Source: Flavobacterium album (lineage in GTDB: Bacteria; Bacteroidota; Bacteroidia; Flavobacteriales; Flavobacteriaceae). Taken from it: a stretch of 64,000 bases of DNA. The first letter of the stretch is position 1, and every line of letters starts with the position of its first letter. Under the pieces are notes generated by a model. That model was given only the letters and a program-made list of their open reading frames with translations, was not told the origin of the DNA and made no database searches. Positions 43,681 to 52,178 of this stretch are shown piece after piece. Where the stretch lies: the NCBI RefSeq assembly GCF_003096035.1, contig NZ_CP029186.1:1563001-1627000 (forward strand). Reading direction: 5' to 3'. The position numbers were made by a program, and so were the translations under genes.

Positions 43681-44388
43681 TTACCTCAACCACGACAGAT
43701 CACTTCCTGCCTCCAGTTCCTCAGGTTCCTTCCCCTGCCTGAACAATCGGGCAGACAAGTCGCCCTTCAGCAGCACAGTATTTCCTTTTACATCCAGCCA
43801 GCTCCCTTCACGAAGCCCAAGTACCGGCTGGGTGTTGAACACGTGAAATTCCTTTATCCGCGTCTCCCGTGTTTCACCCATATGGGTCGATCCCGGCTGC
43901 GGGTCCATGTAATGCGGATTCAGGTTGAACGGCACCAATCCCAGTGTCTTAAAGCTTGGCGGGTAAATTATCGGCATATCGTTTGTCGTCTGCATGGTCA
44001 GCCCACAGATGTTGCTCCCCGCACTGCTGCCAAGGTAAGGCGTGCCAGCTTTCACGGCATTTTCTATAGCGGCCATCACGCCGGTTTTATACAATTGTGA
44101 TACCAGCAGGAACGTGTTCCCGCCGCCGGTAAACAGCGCTTCGGCATCGGCTACAGCCTCCGCAGGGTCTTCAAATTCATGTACGCCTTTTACGCTTATC
44201 CCCAGGCCATCAAAAAAACCGGCAACCCTTTTAGTATAATCATCATGGCTTATTCCGCCAGGACGGGCGTATGGAATAAACAGCAGCGAGCTACAACCTT
44301 TGAAATGTTCCTTTAGCGCCGGGGCCAGGTATTCAAGGTAATTTCCGCCGTGAAGTGTAGAGGTGCTTGCAATAATTAGTTTTTTCAT
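43681..44388 (-). CDS. pepE: Peptidase E (alpha-aspartyl dipeptidase, S51)
   Basis: The 235-residue cytoplasmic enzyme hydrolyses dipeptides with N-terminal Asp. The nucleophile elbow YLGSSAGSN (Ser122) matches the GxSAGxN motif of S51, with LFTGGGNTFLL upstream and NPHYMDPQPGSTHMGETRETR downstream. The length matches E. coli PepE (229). Given the S46 peptidase with predicted acidic specificity elsewhere in the window, an Asp-X dipeptide route is plausible but inferred. Confidence 0.93.
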   Translation of the reverse strand: MKKLIIASTSTLHGGNYLEYLAPALKEHFKGCSSLLFIPYARPGGISHDDYTKRVAGFFDGLGISVKGVHEFEDPAEAVADAEALFTGGGNTFLLVSQLYKTGVMAAIENAVKAGTPYLGSSAGSNICGLTMQTTNDMPIIYPPSFKTLGLVPFNLNPHYMDPQPGSTHMGETRETRIKEFHVFNTQPVLGLREGSWLDVKGNTVLLKGDLSARLFRQGKEPEELEAGSDLSWLR

Positions 44389-44507: not shown

Positions 44508-45236
44508 TTGAAAAACTTCCTGTTTTACGTTTTCCTGCTGCTGTTTTCGCTTGCGGCCAATGCCCAGGATCGCAAACCCCTCAAGGGTAAAGTCATTGCC
44601 GAAACAGACGGACTTGAGGGCATTTATGTCATTAACAAAACCGCCGGGCTATCTGCGGCTACTACCCGGGGCGGCTATTTTACCATAAATGCACAGCCGA
44701 AAGATACCCTCTTGTTTTCTGCAATTCAATTTGAGGCAAAAGATGTTATAATTTCTGAAAAAGACTTCGGCGAAACCCTCCTTTTCGTACCTTTAGCTAT
44801 ACATACGCACAATCTTGATGAATTGGTCATTGTAGATTACAGGCACATCAATGCCGAATCGCTCGGGCTGGTGCCTAAAGGGCAGAAACAATACACGCCT
44901 GCCGAAAAAAAGCTGGCCACGGCATCAAAATGGAGGATGAACCCATTGGGCCTTGATCCGCTCATCAATATGTTCTCGGGGCGCACGGCCACGCTTCAAA
45001 AAGCTGCGGAAGCCGAAAAGAAAGAGCTGCTGATGGAAAAAATAGGCTATATTTATAGCGAAGAGGATATCGTCAGGCAGTTTAAGATACCGGAAGAATA
45101 TGTAAGGGGCTTTGTCTTTTATTGTGTGGAGAATAAATATTTTGCAAAAGCGATAAATGCAAAGGACGATAACATGGCAAAATTCCTGCTGGCGGGCCTG
45201 GCGGTTAAATACCTTAAGCTGATCGATGAGAAATAG
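44508..45236 (+). CDS. Tandem paralogue 1: secreted carboxypeptidase-regulatory-like protein
   Basis: The 242-residue protein opens a five-gene tandem cluster. A signal peptide (1-19, ending NAQ) precedes a beta-sandwich of the CarboxypepD_reg-like type (about 24-110: LKGKVIAETDGLEGIYVINK). This domain is known from TonB-dependent transporters, but no plug or barrel follows here. The box SLGLVPKGQKQYTPAEKK (about 118-135) is shared with members 2 and 4. The helical tail (about 165-242) contains IPEEYVRGFVFYCVENKYFA and ends KYLKLIDEK. The start is TTG 44508, the only codon that gives a complete signal peptide. The function is unknown. Confidence 0.75.
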   Translation: MKNFLFYVFLLLFSLAANAQDRKPLKGKVIAETDGLEGIYVINKTAGLSAATTRGGYFTINAQPKDTLLFSAIQFEAKDVIISEKDFGETLLFVPLAIHTHNLDELVIVDYRHINAESLGLVPKGQKQYTPAEKKLATASKWRMNPLGLDPLINMFSGRTATLQKAAEAEKKELLMEKIGYIYSEEDIVRQFKIPEEYVRGFVFYCVENKYFAKAINAKDDNMAKFLLAGLAVKYLKLIDEK

Positions 45237-45936
45237 CCTGTTTATACTATTGTTTTGTGTGCCGATGCTTGTGTTGTCGCAGGAACGTAAAGCGCTCAAC
45301 GGGCGTATAATGGTTGACGATGCCGGCATAGGCGATGTCTTTATAATCAACAAGGCTACCGGCATCGAAAAAAAGTCGGATGCTATGGGTAATTTTACTA
45401 TAGAAGCCAAACCGGGCGATATGATAACAGCCTATAGCCCGAAAACGGTGGTAAGGGATTTTGCGATCAGTGAGCAGTCTTTTAAGGAGAACCCTTATGT
45501 CATTAGCGTGAACATGCAGGCGTATGAGCTGGAGGAGGTGGTGGTAGACAAAAGCATAAACTCTGTGTCACTGGGCATTGTACCCAAAGGCCAGAAACAA
45601 TACACCCCTGCTGAGAAGAAGCTGTATACTGCAACCAGTGGCTTTGGGATAGATATTTTGCTGAATGCCTTGAGTGGCCGCACCCAAATGCTGAAGCGTG
45701 CCGTGGAGACTGAGAAAAAGGAAATGCTGATGGAGAAGATCGGGAATGTGAGCACGGAGGAAGAAATTATGACCGAATACAAGATACCGGAAGAATATGT
45801 CAGCGGCTTTGTGTATTACCTCGTGGAAGATAAGGAGTTCGCGAATGCCGTAAATACTAAGAACTATACCATGGCCCGTTTTTTAATGACCGGGCTGTCC
45901 ATAAAATACCTAAAGCTCATTAACAATGAAAAGTAA
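45226..45936 (+). CDS. Tandem paralogue 2: secreted carboxypeptidase-regulatory-like protein
   Basis: The 236-residue second member starts inside member 1 (11-base overlap ATGAGAAATAG). It has a signal peptide MRNSLFILLFCVPMLVLSQ, a beta-domain starting ALNGRIMVDDAGIGDVFIINK, the shared box SLGIVPKGQKQYTPAEKK, and a tail with EKKEMLMEKIGNV, then IPEEYVSGFVYYLVEDKEFA, then SIKYLKLIN. It keeps every block of member 1 in the same order. It is likely exported and translated by coupling with its upstream neighbour. Confidence 0.75.
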   Translation: MRNSLFILLFCVPMLVLSQERKALNGRIMVDDAGIGDVFIINKATGIEKKSDAMGNFTIEAKPGDMITAYSPKTVVRDFAISEQSFKENPYVISVNMQAYELEEVVVDKSINSVSLGIVPKGQKQYTPAEKKLYTATSGFGIDILLNALSGRTQMLKRAVETEKKEMLMEKIGNVSTEEEIMTEYKIPEEYVSGFVYYLVEDKEFANAVNTKNYTMARFLMTGLSIKYLKLINNEK

Positions 45937-46678
45937 GCTGATCTACCTGTTGCTCCTTGTTTGTACCGTCGCTTTCCCACAGGGGCGAAAATCATTGCGC
46001 GGAACCGTAAAGTCGGGTGGAGTGAACCTGGCCGGAGTATTTGTTATCAACAACAAGACAGGTGATGAAACCAAAACCGACAGCCAGGGAAATTTTATCA
46101 TAGCAGCCAAAGCAGGCGATAAGGTGGCAGTGTACAGCGACAAGACCGAGACAAGGGAATTTGTGATCACCGACGATAGTTTCAGGAATATGCCCTATGT
46201 GGTGAGCGTGGAATATAAGGCGACCGAGCTGAATGAGGTAGTTATTGATGAAACCAACAAAGATGACCCCTATGCACTTGGGCAAAAAGGGCGCCTCGCT
46301 GCCAATACCCCGGCGGAACGCAAAGCTGTAGCGGGTGCAAGGATAGGCCCGAAATTCAACGATGCCACGGTCCAGGGGGCAGCTATCAATGGCGATGGCA
46401 TCATCAATCTTTTTACAGGTAAGAGAAAAGCGCTCAAGCGGGCTGTCGAGATGGAGCGCAGGGAAAGGCTGATCGCGAAATTCAGAACGATCTACAGCGA
46501 TGAGACACTTATTGTTGAGTTTGGTATCCCAAAAGATAATGTGGACGGTTTTATTTACTATTGCATTGAAGACAAAAAAATGGCAACGGCCATTAACGAC
46601 AATAAAACCGACGTTGTAGAATCCCTTATGCCCGACCTTGTGCTGAAGTATGTTGAAATGACAAAGAATGGCAAATAG
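45926..46678 (+). CDS. Tandem paralogue 3: secreted carboxypeptidase-regulatory-like protein
   Basis: The 250-residue third member overlaps member 2 by 11 bases (ATGAAAAGTAA). A signal peptide (MKSKLIYLLLLVCTVAFPQ) precedes the beta-domain SLRGTVKSGGVNLAGVFVIN. The conserved box is altered here to YALGQKGRLAANTPAERK, with a different glycine-rich linker after it. The tail retains RRERLIAKFRTIYSDE and IPKDNVDGFIYYCIEDKKMA. Its first half is very similar at DNA level to member 4, including a 29-base stretch with a single mismatch. Confidence 0.75.
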   Translation: MKSKLIYLLLLVCTVAFPQGRKSLRGTVKSGGVNLAGVFVINNKTGDETKTDSQGNFIIAAKAGDKVAVYSDKTETREFVITDDSFRNMPYVVSVEYKATELNEVVIDETNKDDPYALGQKGRLAANTPAERKAVAGARIGPKFNDATVQGAAINGDGIINLFTGKRKALKRAVEMERRERLIAKFRTIYSDETLIVEFGIPKDNVDGFIYYCIEDKKMATAINDNKTDVVESLMPDLVLKYVEMTKNGK

Positions 46679-47417
46679 GCTGCTATACCTGTTTTTCCTT
46701 TTTACGGCCATTGCATTCGCACAGGACCGGCAGTTGCTGAAAGGTAAAGTCACTATCGGCGATGCGGTGGTCAGCGGTATTTTTGTCATCAATAATAAAA
46801 CCGGTGAGGAAACCAAAACCGACAGCCAGGGCAGCTTCAGCATTATGGCAAAAACAGGCGATGCCCTTGCGGTTTACAGCGATAAGACCGAGATAAGGGA
46901 ATTTGCTGTCAATGCTAATACTTTTAAGGAATCGCCCTATATCGTGAGCGTCAACTACAAAGCTTACGAGCTTAAGGAAGTCGAGATCGATAAATACAAA
47001 AATATAAATTCCGAAAAATTAGGCATTGTCCCGAAAGGGCAGAAGCAATATACCGTAGCCGAGCGAAGGCTCAAAACGGCAGGAGAATTCAGGCCGATCA
47101 TGCTTCTCGGTATTATTGCGGGCGGTATGCCAATAGATCCTATTATCAACGCCATCAGCGGCCGTACCAAAATGCTTAAAGGCGCATTAGCTACCGAAAG
47201 GAAGGAAATGCTGATGGAAAAGATCAACAACATTTATGATGAGCAAGCTATTAGGAATGAACTGCATATTCCACAGGAATATGTGGACGGATTTGTTTTT
47301 TATGCTGTAGAAGATAAAGACTTTGCTGCCGCAATTAAGGCAAATAACAATGACCAGGCTAAATTCCTCCTGGCCGGGCTGGCCCAAAAATACCTTAAAC
47401 TTATAAATGCTGAATAG
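46668..47417 (+). CDS. Tandem paralogue 4: secreted carboxypeptidase-regulatory-like protein
   Basis: The 249-residue fourth member overlaps member 3 by 11 bases (ATGGCAAATAG). It has a signal peptide MANRLLYLFFLFTAIAFAQ, a beta-domain LLKGKVTIGDAVVSGIFVIN, the shared box KLGIVPKGQKQYTVAERR, and a tail with ERKEMLMEKINNIYDE, IPQEYVDGFVFYAVEDKDFA and QKYLKLINAE. A hydrophobic linker (IMLLGIIAGGMPIDPIIN) lies between box and tail, matching PLGLDPLINMFSGR of member 1. It appears to be a mosaic: the 5' half is closest to member 3 and the 3' half to members 1-2. Confidence 0.75.
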   Translation: MANRLLYLFFLFTAIAFAQDRQLLKGKVTIGDAVVSGIFVINNKTGEETKTDSQGSFSIMAKTGDALAVYSDKTEIREFAVNANTFKESPYIVSVNYKAYELKEVEIDKYKNINSEKLGIVPKGQKQYTVAERRLKTAGEFRPIMLLGIIAGGMPIDPIINAISGRTKMLKGALATERKEMLMEKINNIYDEQAIRNELHIPQEYVDGFVFYAVEDKDFAAAIKANNNDQAKFLLAGLAQKYLKLINAE

Positions 47418-48156
47418 GCTTGCCGCAATACTGGTCATTTTGTTTCCCTTTGCTGTTGAAGCACAGGAGAAACAGCTTCGGGGCGTTATTATAGCCGATG
47501 AGATAAAGGTTGAGAATGTTACCGTAAGAAACACTACTACAAACACCAGTACGGTAGCCGATGGCAATGGAAATTTTACTATAGATGCTAAACCAGACGA
47601 TGTACTGTCTTTTGAAAGTGTAATTTTCAAGTCGTTAATAGTTGTACTCAAGCCTTCGGATTTTGGGGAAGAAGCATTGGTCATAAGGCTGGAGCCTGCC
47701 GCAACCCTTCTCAAAGAGGTTGTAATAACAGGCCTTACGGGCAACCTCGCGGCCGACAGTAAAAAGATAAAGACCATGCAGATAACCTCATTGTTTGATG
47801 CGGCAGAGATAAATAAGGATGTGCTTACGCAAACAAGCATCGGCGGCGCTAACTGGATCGCGGGTATCAGCATGCTGTTTAAAAAACCTAAGAAGCCAAA
47901 ACGCGCTATGGAATATGTGCCGGACATAAAATCGCAGCGTCGCTTTTCAGAGATTGTCAGGGAGTCGTATCCTGAAGAATTCTTTACTGATACACTGAAA
48001 ATACGCGTAAGCCTCATCGGGGCATTCCTTGTTTTTTGCGATGACAAAGCCGACTTGGCCCTGCTGCAAGGAAAGCGGGAACTTGAACTAATTGAATTCC
48101 TCAAAACTCAAAGTGAAGAGTTCCTTAAGCGAAACCCGGATGCAAGAAGGGATTGA
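47407..48156 (+). CDS. Tandem paralogue 5: divergent secreted carboxypeptidase-regulatory-like protein
   Basis: The 249-residue last member overlaps member 4 by 11 bases (ATGCTGAATAG). It has a signal peptide (about 1-20, ending VEAQ) and the beta-domain (QLRGVIIADEIKVENVTVRN). The QKQYT box is absent and a longer, partly basic linker (FKKPKKPKRAMEY) takes its place. The tail is recognisable but diverged (RRFSEIVRESYPEEFFTDTL, VSLIGAFLVFCDDKADLALL). It resembles the single-copy form often found upstream of a DUF6702-like gene in Flavobacteria, from memory. Its function is unknown. Confidence 0.72.
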   Translation: MLNRLAAILVILFPFAVEAQEKQLRGVIIADEIKVENVTVRNTTTNTSTVADGNGNFTIDAKPDDVLSFESVIFKSLIVVLKPSDFGEEALVIRLEPAATLLKEVVITGLTGNLAADSKKIKTMQITSLFDAAEINKDVLTQTSIGGANWIAGISMLFKKPKKPKRAMEYVPDIKSQRRFSEIVRESYPEEFFTDTLKIRVSLIGAFLVFCDDKADLALLQGKRELELIEFLKTQSEEFLKRNPDARRD

Positions 48157-48347: not shown

Positions 48348-48355
48348 TACTTTTG
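48348..48355 (+). promoter_or_regulatory. -7 box of the DUF6702-like gene, nearly leaderless
   Basis: TACTTTTG matches TAnnTTTG and ends only four bases before the ATG at 48360, implying a transcript with almost no leader. The 203-base gap before it also carries an AGTATTG/CAATACT hairpin (48213-48230). Confidence 0.6.
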
Positions 48356-48359
48356 GAAA

Positions 48360-48863
48360 ATGAAAGGACTTCCAAAATACCTTTTACTGGTTTTACTAGC
48401 CGTTACACTGAGCGCAGCTGCCGCACATAAATATTATGTCGCGGTATTCCTCATTGAATATTCCCCGAAAAAGAAAGAGCTGCAAATGACATCGCGCATA
48501 TTTATCGACGACCTTGAAGCCGCCTTCATAAAAAAATACAATAAGAAATTTTATATGGGCGAAAAGCGCGAGCTTTTCGAAACAGAGGAATACCTCCGTA
48601 AATATTTTGCCGAAAACATACATATAAAGGTGGATGGCAAATCGAAAGCTATAAAATACCTTGCGAAAGAAATTGAGAACGATATCCTGATTTGCTATTT
48701 TACCATCCCTGCCGATCTGAAAATAAAATCGGTTGAGGTAAGCAATACCACGCTTCTGGATATGTATCCCGAACAGCAAAATATAATAAATACTAAAATA
48801 AACAGTAACAAAAAAAGCCTGTTGCTGACTAATGACGCACCTTCAGGCCTGCTGGAGTTTTAA
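48360..48863 (+). CDS. DUF6702-like secreted protein
   Basis: The 167-residue protein has a signal peptide (about 1-21) and a single domain beginning HKYYVAVFLIEYSPKKKELQMTSRIFIDDLEAAF, a pattern I associate with DUF6702. The chain continues KVDGKSKAIKYLAKEIENDI and ends SLLLTNDAPSGLLEF. It starts from its own promoter and is followed 10 bases later by the M1 peptidase gene, so the two form an operon. Association with M1 peptidases is recurrent in Flavobacteria (recollection). The function is unknown. Confidence 0.78.
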   Translation: MKGLPKYLLLVLLAVTLSAAAAHKYYVAVFLIEYSPKKKELQMTSRIFIDDLEAAFIKKYNKKFYMGEKRELFETEEYLRKYFAENIHIKVDGKSKAIKYLAKEIENDILICYFTIPADLKIKSVEVSNTTLLDMYPEQQNIINTKINSNKKSLLLTNDAPSGLLEF

Positions 48864-48873
48864 ATTATCATTT

Positions 48874-51129
48874 ATGAAAAAAACAATCTGCTTATTATCC
48901 ATTGCCGCAACAGTTACCTTGTCTGCACAGGAAAAACCGGCGCAAAAGCGCGAAGGCGGCCACACCGATAACAATAAAATGAGCCAGATGTACGACCTGC
49001 TGGCCACGCCAAATATGTTCCGTACGGCATCGGGCGCACCGGGCCCTGCCTACTACCAGCAGCAGGCGGATTATAAGATGGACATCGAGCTAGACGATAA
49101 AAATACAAAGCTATACGGCAAGGAAACCATTACCTACCACAATAATTCACCGGAAAGCCTGGACTACCTTTGGGTACAGCTCGACCAAAACATAAACGAA
49201 AAAGATTCAAAGTCAAAGCTTACCGAAAGCCAGAAAATGGACCCGGCCTACAAGGCAGATGCTTTTTCGCGCCGTTATATGGAAGATGCCTTCGATGGCG
49301 GTTTCCGTATAGAATATGTGCAGGATGCCAATGGCAAGCCCATGAAATACACCATCAACCAGACAATGATGCGTATTGACCTGCCTGCACCGTTGAAGAA
49401 AGGCGAAACGATTTCCTTCAATATAAAATGGTGGTACAACATCAACAATTACCGACTTATAGGTGGGCGCTCTGGCTATGAGCATTTTGATAAAGACAAT
49501 AACAACCTGTATGTGATCGCGCAATTCTACCCGCGTATGGCGGTGTACAACGATGTGGAAGGCTGGCAGAACATGCAGTTTTGGGGCGCGGGCGAATTTG
49601 CCCTTACCTTCGGTAATTTCGAGGTGAACATCACTGTTCCTGCCGACCATATAATTGACGGTACCGGCGACCTGATGAACCGTGCCGAAGTGCTTACCGC
49701 TGATCAGTTGAAGCGCTATGAGCAGGCTACAAAATCGTTTGACAAGCCGGTGGTTATCGTAACCCAAGAAGAAGCAGAGAGAGCTGAAAAAGGCTTTTCA
49801 GATAAAAAGAAAACATGGAAGTTCAATGCAAAGAATGTAAGGGATTTCGGTTTCTCGTCGTCACGTAAATTTATTTATGACGGTATGGCCGTACAGCTTG
49901 GCGGCAAGACCGTTATGGCACACTCGCTTTATCCGAAGGAATCCAACCCCATGTGGGGCGAAACCTCAACAAGGGTAGTGGCGCATACGCTAAAAACCTA
50001 TTCGAAATATACATTCGACTATCCGTATCCCAAAGCGATTTCGGTATCTGCCGAAGACCAGGGGATGGAGTACCCGATGATCTGCTGGAACTATGGCCGC
50101 CCCGATGAGAAAGGCTTTGTGTCGGAAAGGATAAAGTACGGCAACATCAGCGTGATCATACACGAAGTAGGGCACAACTTTTTCCCGATGATCGTGAATT
50201 CTGACGAAAGACAGTGGACGTGGATGGACGAAGGGCTCAACACCTTTATGCAATACCTTGCCGAGCAGGAATACATGCCGAACTACCCGTCGAACCGTGG
50301 CCCGGCAGCCAATATCGTGCCTTACATGAGCGGCGACCAGAGCTTTTTGGAGCCGATAATGACGAACTCTGAAGCTATACACCAGTTTGGTTCCAATGCC
50401 TATGGCAAGCCGTGCACAGGATTGAATATGCTGCGCGAAGTGGTGATGGGCAAAGAGCTGTTCGACCATGCTTTTAAAACCTATGCCAACCGCTGGAAGT
50501 TTAAGCACCCGACACCTGAAGACTTTTTCCGTACCATGGAAGATGCATCGGCGGTAGACCTTGACTGGTTCTGGAGGGGATGGTTCTACACCACCGATTA
50601 TGTAGATATGGGCATAAAGGAAGTGAAGCAGTATTATGTTACCGAAACACAGCCTGCCACGTTGAAGGATTATAAAGTGAAGAAAGGCCGCTTCAGTGAA
50701 GAGTCGGGTCCGTTTGTTTATATGGTCGCGGAAGCCGCCCTTGGCAAGCAGGAAAAAAAGGCTATGGATGCCAAAGACGTAAAGCTGCTGAATGATTACC
50801 TTAAAGAGAAATTCACTGCGGAAGACAGGGCAAAGCTTAAAGCGCCCAAATATTTTTATGAAGTAACGTTCGACAAGCCGGGCGATATGCTGATGCCGAT
50901 ACTTGTAGAGCTGGCATTTGAGGATGGCACTACAGAAAGCTACAACTTCCCGGTACAGATATGGAGGAAAAACAACCAGACGGCATCGCGTGTTTTTGCT
51001 ACCGACAAGCGGGTTAAAAAGATCACGCTCGACCCGAAACTGCTTACCGCCGACATTGATGTGACCAATAACGTTTGGCCAAAAGAAGCCGTAAAGAGCA
51101 AATTTGACGAATTGGAAAAAGGAAAGTAA
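48874..51129 (+). CDS. M1-family zinc metallopeptidase
   Basis: The 751-residue peptidase has a signal peptide (about 1-19) and the M1 fold with an N-terminal beta-domain. The zinc site is His430-Glu431-x2-His434 with Glu453 19 residues later (HEVGHN ... WMDEGLNTF). The exopeptidase motif is QGMEYPM in place of GAMEN. A C-terminal alpha region follows, with ASAVDLDWFWRGWFYTTDYVD. The start at 48874 is preferred over 48832, because the longer frame places extra residues before the signal peptide. It is probably periplasmic or outer-membrane facing. Confidence 0.94.
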   Translation: MKKTICLLSIAATVTLSAQEKPAQKREGGHTDNNKMSQMYDLLATPNMFRTASGAPGPAYYQQQADYKMDIELDDKNTKLYGKETITYHNNSPESLDYLWVQLDQNINEKDSKSKLTESQKMDPAYKADAFSRRYMEDAFDGGFRIEYVQDANGKPMKYTINQTMMRIDLPAPLKKGETISFNIKWWYNINNYRLIGGRSGYEHFDKDNNNLYVIAQFYPRMAVYNDVEGWQNMQFWGAGEFALTFGNFEVNITVPADHIIDGTGDLMNRAEVLTADQLKRYEQATKSFDKPVVIVTQEEAERAEKGFSDKKKTWKFNAKNVRDFGFSSSRKFIYDGMAVQLGGKTVMAHSLYPKESNPMWGETSTRVVAHTLKTYSKYTFDYPYPKAISVSAEDQGMEYPMICWNYGRPDEKGFVSERIKYGNISVIIHEVGHNFFPMIVNSDERQWTWMDEGLNTFMQYLAEQEYMPNYPSNRGPAANIVPYMSGDQSFLEPIMTNSEAIHQFGSNAYGKPCTGLNMLREVVMGKELFDHAFKTYANRWKFKHPTPEDFFRTMEDASAVDLDWFWRGWFYTTDYVDMGIKEVKQYYVTETQPATLKDYKVKKGRFSEESGPFVYMVAEAALGKQEKKAMDAKDVKLLNDYLKEKFTAEDRAKLKAPKYFYEVTFDKPGDMLMPILVELAFEDGTTESYNFPVQIWRKNNQTASRVFATDKRVKKITLDPKLLTADIDVTNNVWPKEAVKSKFDELEKGK

Positions 51130-51170: not shown

Positions 51171-52178
51171 ATGAAAAAACTATTACTATTCATTGCTTTT
51201 TTAATGTCTCTTAATGCTTTTGCACAAACACCTATCCAGGCTTTTTACACCGCATCGCTTATACCGGAAGACAGCAATATTACCAGCTATGACCTGGTAA
51301 CATCCGCTTCAGGGCCGAACCAGTCAGCGACAGGTGCTAATGTGGTATGGAACTTCAATGATCTTACCCAGGTAACGACCACTGCTACTACCGTGCTCGC
51401 GGCTTCTGCCAATGATATTGCCAATTATCCCGGGACAACAATGGCCGTTGAGACTACAACGCAGGGTGGTAACCCATCGTATTATTACCTTGGCACATCA
51501 GGAAGTGCAACGTCCCTCACAGGGGCAGACACTTCACAAATGACCATTAAATATACCAATCCGGCACTGATAGGTAACTTCCCGATGAATTATGGTGACA
51601 GTACTTCAGATACCGTGGCAGGCACCTTTACGGGCAGTGGCTTTTCCGGGACCTTCACGGGGACAACGTCAACTTCGGTAGATGCCTACGGTACCCTTAC
51701 TGTAAACGTTGGCTTTAGCGGCCCTAAGAATGTAACAAGGCTTAAGACTCTGCAAAACCTTTCGTTGGTATATATGGGCGTTCCTGTAGGTACGCTTACG
51801 CAGACTACCTACAGCTACTATAGCAGCGACTTTATGCTGGGGCCAGTATTCAGGAGTATCAACAGCCATATAGTTGTAGCTGCGCTAAGCATCGACCAGA
51901 CACAAAACACCCTTGAAGTATATGACCAGATGGCGAATGGCGTTGAAGATTTCAATAACCGCCAGAAGGTTGTAATTGCCCCGAACCCCGTTAAGGATGT
52001 ACTGCACATCGAAGGCGATGCAGCGATTGAATCAGTAAAGATAATCGATACTACCGGAAGGATAATTGCCGAGGGTAAAAGCAATGACATCCCGGTAAAC
52101 CAGTTTCCTGCTGGCATTTACCAGGTGCTTGTGAAGGGACAAAGCGGCAGTAAATCCTTAAAAATGGTTAAACAATAA
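51171..52178 (+). CDS. Secreted protein with T9SS type A sorting tail
   Basis: The 335-residue protein has a signal peptide (MKKLLLFIAFLMSLNAFAQ) and a Thr/Ser/Gly-rich beta region (about 25-250) with no recognised family. The C-terminal T9SS domain starts KVVIAPNPVKDVLHIEG, followed by SVKIIDTTGRIIAEG, VNQFPAGIYQVLVKG and a final SLKMVKQ. It is exported through the T9SS and is likely surface-attached. It is monocistronic, with tatA 80 bases downstream. Confidence 0.88.
   Translation: MKKLLLFIAFLMSLNAFAQTPIQAFYTASLIPEDSNITSYDLVTSASGPNQSATGANVVWNFNDLTQVTTTATTVLAASANDIANYPGTTMAVETTTQGGNPSYYYLGTSGSATSLTGADTSQMTIKYTNPALIGNFPMNYGDSTSDTVAGTFTGSGFSGTFTGTTSTSVDAYGTLTVNVGFSGPKNVTRLKTLQNLSLVYMGVPVGTLTQTTYSYYSSDFMLGPVFRSINSHIVVAALSIDQTQNTLEVYDQMANGVEDFNNRQKVVIAPNPVKDVLHIEGDAAIESVKIIDTTGRIIAEGKSNDIPVNQFPAGIYQVLVKGQSGSKSLKMVKQ

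Follow-up and report, generated by a model that had tools for sequence, protein, structure and literature searches.

The five tandem genes at positions 44508–48156 on the plus strand of the analysed stretch of Flavobacterium album DNA (64,000 nucleotides; contig NZ_CP029186.1, positions 1,563,001 to 1,627,000; here called the window) likely constitute the bamP locus, in which gene 5 encodes a class II, BamP-type protein and genes 1–4 encode four class I paralogues, all of them probably accessory subunits of the BAM complex. In Flavobacterium johnsoniae, BamP belongs to the BAM complex as a periplasmic component (Nature 2025, PMC12611786; PDB 9n2d/9n2e, chain 9n2d_E), and this report is the sole paper on BamP that our literature searches for the protein or its locus tags found. 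The array is thus made up of a known kind of protein, of which F. johnsoniae has a smaller set. BamP-type proteins insert a peptide loop into the central outer-membrane assembly machine, and the new point concerns the loop of class I, namely its conservation and spread; in the accessible part of the published report the class I members are not tested individually. Our analysis yielded the family relationship, the domain plan, the locus, the conservation, the purifying selection, and the presence of the BAM partners.

The array consists of five open reading frames (ORFs) of 236–250 aa, and neighboring genes overlap by 11 nt at every junction, which suggests that they form one operon. The first-pass annotation of this DNA had already described them as tandem, secreted paralogues with a CarboxypepD_reg-like domain devoid of a TonB plug or barrel, and this description holds. 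The pairwise identity is 22–54%, and each protein starts with a hydrophobic segment which stops before a glutamine, as judged by reading the sequence and not by a signal-peptide program; in the same way no lipobox cysteine was found after this segment. The CarboxypepD_reg-like domain (PF13715) is present in all five, albeit below the Pfam threshold (14.2–30.2 bits vs. 32.2), and neither Pfam nor the sequence revealed a plug, barrel, or sorting domain. The box LGxVPKGQKQYT is common to genes 1, 2, and 4 as had been stated, gene 3 has a degenerate form, and gene 5 is without it. The tail IPxEYVxGFVFYxVEDKxFA...KYLKLI, previously ascribed to every member, fits well in genes 1, 2, and 4 and loosely in gene 3, but is absent from gene 5, which belongs to the other class.

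The assignment to the BamP family comes from profile and structure comparisons. The NCBIfam model NF053692 (BamP) matches genes 1–5 with E values of 6.5e-26, 2e-14, 5.7e-21, 1.6e-18, and 3.6e-39, respectively; for genes 1, 3, 4, and 5 this is a full-length match to a characterized family, an outcome that the first-pass annotation had named as speaking against its view, whereas gene 2 is matched over residues 1–112 only. A class I profile (36 sequences) matches 9n2d_E end to end (2.1e-24, over 1–238 of 242), as does a class II profile (29 sequences) with 2.8e-87, and all other PDB matches of both profiles are confined to the N-terminal part. Gene 5 alone also matches 9n2d_E over residues 2–243 (E 3.4e-14). 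The predicted models of gene 4 (pLDDT 82.7, pTM 0.42) and gene 5 (pLDDT 74.7, pTM 0.39) comprise a β domain and a helical domain with a loop of low confidence between them, a plan which genes 1–3 share according to the alignment, and for both models the top PDB match in Foldseek is 9n2d_E (gene 4 E 1.1e-6; gene 5 E 2.1e-8). The earlier view that no system of such repeated copies had been described has to be given up, as F. johnsoniae BamP and three homologues are already published (PMC12611786).

The position of the array points in the same direction. Genome G161 encodes a protein identical to 9n2d_E over 249/249 residues, and for this reason we assume it to be the F. johnsoniae strain behind the structure. 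In this genome two genes with the class I box are followed by bamP, with pepE on one side and the DUF6702 and M1 genes on the other side. As the flanks of the window array (pepE/array/DUF6702/M1) match this arrangement, we regard the array as the bamP locus. The two genes preceding bamP are presumably BamP2 and BamP3. Outside this array, the search of G161 at E ≤ 1e-8 yielded a protein of 257 aa at a distance of 0.8 Mb, which by elimination is BamP4, and three matches in frames of 731–1100 aa.

Compared with BamP (Fjoh_1771), the array proteins share the domain plan, the full-length profile match, and the β-domain fold, and lie likewise between pepE and DUF6702–M1, but the identity is 27% for gene 5 and 23–27% for genes 1–4, and the profile scores are below the naming cut-off. 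There are five array genes here and three in F. johnsoniae, and genes 1–4 carry the class I loop. Genes 1, 2, and 4 have the class and the box of the two F. johnsoniae genes before bamP (36–41% identity), whereas the number of class I copies is four here and gene 3 has a variant loop and 29% identity. In the genome of the window six BamP homologues were found at E ≤ 1e-10, compared to the four that have names in F. johnsoniae; the five of the array match BamP best. The sixth homologue (L127:7245–8045, minus strand, at about 2.792 Mb of this same genome, C1) lies outside the window; it is 61% identical (BLAST) to the stand-alone fourth homologue of F. johnsoniae, likewise a single gene elsewhere on the chromosome and outside the array, and is probably the BamP4 counterpart.

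Several observations weigh against our interpretation. All five genes score below the NF053692 cut-off of 230 bits (53.6–134.7 bits). Gene 4 alone has no significant match to 9n2d_E (E 0.24), and the TM-scores of the models against this chain, of which 146 residues are modelled in the deposited structure, are low (0.31–0.32 by query, 0.52–0.53 by target). In pairwise BLAST gene 5 scores alike against BamP (67.8 bits) and the second array gene of F. johnsoniae (69.7 bits). Furthermore, BamP and BamP4 are the only members with direct binding described in the accessible part of the published report, according to which rich medium allows no appreciable expression of BamP2 and BamP3 (PMC12611786). 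The cut-off is also missed by the other F. johnsoniae array genes, with 98.5 and 92.7 bits, and by the fourth homologue, with 56.3 bits, so that it separates BamP proper from its homologues; genes 1–5 are not assigned to the NF053692 equivalog. Gene 5 is paired with BamP because of profile, tree, and position and not because of pairwise BLAST.

The structure of the F. johnsoniae complex gives a hint how the array products might act. According to this report, the N-terminal domain of BamP binds POTRA 4/5 of BamA, the three-helix domain occupies the space between POTRA 1 and BamD, and the linking loop goes into the BamA barrel up to L6 and exits at the lateral seam and would there present a steric obstacle to the formation of a hybrid barrel; BamP4 also binds BAM in pull-downs (PMC12611786). 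By analogy, we infer binding, loop path, and shielding for genes 1–5 as follows. Each product, presumably exported to the periplasm, consists of a small β domain, a loop of about 57–69 residues, and a helical domain. The β domain would dock on POTRA 4/5 of BamA, the helical domain would be placed between POTRA 1 and BamD, and the loop would thread through the BamA barrel and leave it at the lateral seam, thus serving as a plug that has to be displaced for substrate insertion. In F. johnsoniae removal of all four homologues sensitizes a permeabilized strain to darobactin and overexpression of BamP suppresses the sensitivity (PMC12611786); in the same manner the loop may shield the seam from inhibitors such as darobactin. 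We propose the plug role for gene 5 because of its correspondence to BamP, and for genes 1–4 because of their fold, their locus, and the fact that their best conserved part is the segment which in BamP enters the barrel. The several copies might conceivably be alternative plugs of one BamA.

To compare the two classes, 391 BamP-type proteins of 180–340 aa (shorter and longer ORFs being left out) were collected from the window, 91 loci, and 54 named loci; the loci were sampled through BamP hits and the locus sets overlap, 20/172 named proteins being identical to proteins of the other set. The collection comprises 247 class I proteins, 109 class II proteins, and 35 proteins of a second-locus group; the class I copies thus outnumber the structurally solved class in this sample chosen through BamP hits. 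In a tree of 58 rows (quick IQ-TREE search) class I is set apart by a branch with an SH-aLRT of 99.8; genes 1–4 fall into class I and gene 5 is found across the branch on the BamP side, along with the second-locus group. Judged by their sequences, class I and the BamP class are sister classes that split anciently. The second-locus group itself comprises one to three BamP-type genes per locus (L052, L054, L056, L061, L063, L068, L070, and others) without pepE, DUF6702, or M1 adjoining (29 runs). Its candidacy as F. johnsoniae BamP4 was dismissed by a search of G161, in which the group is absent at E ≤ 1e-8.

The classes differ most clearly in their loops. The class I loop has the consensus LGxxPxGQKxYTxAERxL ... 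DPxxNxxSGRTxxLK, and a loose pattern of the first box occurs in 214/247 class I proteins, in 0/109 class II proteins, and in 0/35 proteins of the second-locus group; a narrow pattern is found in 137/210 non-last array members (346 members). These box counts do not provide an independent test, the class assignment having used full-length profiles. The independent check with domain-only profiles agrees with the assigned class for 352/356 N-domains and 354/356 C-domains, and loop shuffling between the classes was looked for with these profiles and not found. After removal of redundancy (78/247 class I and 31/109 class II rows kept), the loop is the best conserved region of class I with 2.67 bits per occupied column vs. 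1.99 and 2.12 in the domains, whereas in class II it is the least conserved one with 1.85 bits vs. 2.31 and 2.20. Thus, the published remark on diverging loops fits the differences between the classes and within class II, but not those within class I.

In view of the ancient split (the SH-aLRT of 99.8), of loops that do not cross between the classes, and of a loop that is conserved in class I where that of the BamP class is not, genes 1–4 might be a distinct BAM accessory, for example, client- or condition-specific, that keeps BamA in a state other than that kept by BamP. We hold this for possible but doubtful, as domain plan and locus are the same as those of BamP; it would be compatible with the array being the bamP locus. 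Rather tentatively, we suggest further that class I represents a second type of BamA plug, of ancient origin and present in Flavobacterium and other genera of the family, whose highly conserved loop fits, unlike that of BamP, a conserved site of the BamA barrel (another state or client) and which has multiplied into tandem sets, four genes here and seven in one relative, as alternative plugs of one BamA. If so, the direct binding data on BamP and BamP4, as far as the accessible part of the report goes (PMC12611786), would concern other members and not class I. A class I loop that also entered BamA would reveal the BamA surface used and whether bacteria keep exchangeable sets of plugs.

Homologues are widespread in the genus. 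A search with gene 4 gave matches at E ≤ 1e-10 in 393/397 Flavobacterium genomes (at most six candidates were scored per genome, so that copy numbers are lower bounds). The class I profile has a match in 299/299 genomes drawn from the family (203/203 genera); among the matches listed (E ≤ 2.9e-38) most of the profile is spanned, and weak best hits in some family genomes, down to about 1e-11, may reflect the β domain alone. The BamP family model matches at E ≤ 1e-10 in 71/100 relatives, namely in 60/60 within the genus and in few of other families, and in 0/14 control genomes; the distribution of BamP within the phylum has been called restricted (PMC12611786).

The locus is conserved as well. 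In the mixed arrays other than that of the window pepE lies upstream in 98/99 cases, and DUF6702 and M1 lie downstream in 93/99 and 94/99 cases, respectively. Class I directly adjoins the BamP gene in 100/100 mixed arrays, and the order class I...class II is found in 46/46 mixed arrays of the first set including the window and in 54/54 named loci. This order is not universal, as in eight loci from other genera the five with both classes, situated beside DUF6702–M1, all start with class II (Table 1); the remaining three have class I only and no DUF6702–M1 nearby. In the genus the arrays comprise two to eight genes. The longest array seen (L221:6235–12096, minus strand) has eight genes, seven of class I and one of class II.

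Another array, L220, keeps the same five genes one to one. The identity between window and L220 is 66, 77, 68, 67, and 54% for genes 1–5 and 87, 79, 82, 78, and 68% for their loops. The loop is the best conserved region in four of the five pairs, gene 2 being the exception with 79% vs. 80% in the C-domain, and even the odd loop of gene 3 is kept. The dN values are 0.16–0.38 and dS, where estimable, exceeds 1.1; as dS is saturated and one NG86 and two YN00 estimates are lacking, this comparison gives no more than the low dN and ratios that do not exceed about 0.25. This indicates that all five genes are under purifying selection and that the five-gene state predates the split from L220. A merely local duplication without selection, which the first-pass annotation had named as the outcome that would speak against a set of cooperating proteins, is ruled out by the low dN and by the presence in nearly all genomes of the genus. 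For the same reasons, the one-to-one retention and the kept loop of gene 3 included, we consider it improbable that the copies are redundant spares without a function of their own, even though F. johnsoniae tolerates deletion of all four homologues with no growth defect on rich medium (PMC12611786).

The BAM core co-occurs with the array. Searches over the whole genome (3,983,546 bases, one contig) found BamA (1291.6 bits to 9n2d_A), BamG (459.9 bits), BamH (584.4 bits), and BamD (123.5 bits) over the cut-offs and a BamM-like protein with 259.5 bits, under its cut-off of 315. One further BamG candidate, L247, was discarded (no PDB match, 40.1 bits vs. a cut-off of 250). The genome also encodes two Omp85 proteins of the TamL type (L234:2671–5211 and L235:3779–6406). 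Both are over the cut-off (845 and 744.5 bits vs. 400), and the accessible part of the published report does not show the partner of class I (PMC12611786), so the barrel entered by the class I loops could be that of another Omp85 protein, for example one of these two, and not that of BamA. We regard this as quite unlikely given that class I stands beside the BamP gene in every mixed array and that its C-terminal domain is homologous to the domain linking BamA and BamD.

The β domain (residues about 20–100) has a fold in common with the N-terminal extension domain of SusC/TonB receptors (e.g., PDB 9hfj, 6ytc); in those the domain is succeeded by plug and barrel, here by a loop and a helical domain. 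An identity as SusC/TonB-dependent receptors was ruled out, as proteins of 236–250 aa without a plug or barrel Pfam domain match BamP instead. Of the two envelope roles that had been envisaged, that of proteins acting as partners agrees with the BamP match, while for receptors nothing was found in support; a role at the surface as receptors, or in binding unknown ligands, is very improbable, since beyond this shared N-terminal domain no plug, barrel, lipobox, or sorting domain was found and the best full-length match is BamP.

Table 1. Features of the bamP-type array, its neighbors in the window, and class II-first arrays of other genera
Feature	Position	Strand	Evidence
Gene 1, class I BamP homologue, 242 aa, TTG start	44508..45236	+	NF053692 91.3 bits over 2–218
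Gene 2, class I BamP homologue, 236 aa	45226..45936	+	NF053692 53.6 bits over 1–112 only
Gene 3, class I BamP homologue, variant loop, 250 aa	45926..46678	+	NF053692 75.1 bits over 1–227
Gene 4, class I BamP homologue, 249 aa	46668..47417	+	NF053692 67 bits over 6–227
Gene 5, class II, positional counterpart of BamP, 249 aa	47407..48156	+	NF053692 134.7 bits over 5–241
Gene 1 interdomain loop, residues 109–168, with box	44832..45011	+	alignment
Gene 2 interdomain loop, residues 105–161, with box	45538..45708	+	alignment
Gene 3 interdomain loop, residues 108–175, degenerate box	46247..46450	+	alignment
Gene 4 interdomain loop, residues 108–175, with box	46989..47192	+	alignment
Gene 5 interdomain loop, residues 108–176, class II type	47728..47934	+	alignment, model
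Direct repeat D2, copies inside loops of genes 1, 2, 4	44846–44924, 45555–45633, 47003–47081
pepE (dipeptidase E), upstream neighbor	43681..44388	-	NF003642 303.5 bits
DUF6702 gene, downstream neighbor, not counted in array	48360..48863	+	PF20420 147.6 bits
M1 family peptidase, downstream neighbor	48874..51129	+	PF01433 59.5 bits
Class II-first arrays	L262:6676–8323, L263:5893–7435, L264:5888–8240, L265:5442–7760, L269:6768–9195

The end of the array and the DUF6702 gene are separated by a gap of 203 nt, and a TAnnTTTG site lies at 48348–48355, directly upstream of this gene. TAnnTTTG is the −7 consensus of Bacteroidota. In the window the motif is not found above chance (62 vs. 60.6 expected), and promoter-like sites (9 vs. 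7.5 ± 2.8) and terminator-like sites (8 vs. 4.8 ± 2.5) were near chance in the respective scans. The pair of DUF6702 and M1 peptidase genes (48360–51129) lies downstream of the array in the window, as in the majority of the other mixed arrays. DUF6702 has been described in 2025 as a metal-binding protein with an N-terminal histidine, and M1 neighbors are noted in the accessible part of that report (PMC12537917); by eye, the mature protein encoded in the window may start with a histidine after AAAA. Further downstream, at 51171–52178, a secreted protein with a type A sorting domain of the type IX secretion system is encoded (TIGR04183, 35.1 bits vs. 23).

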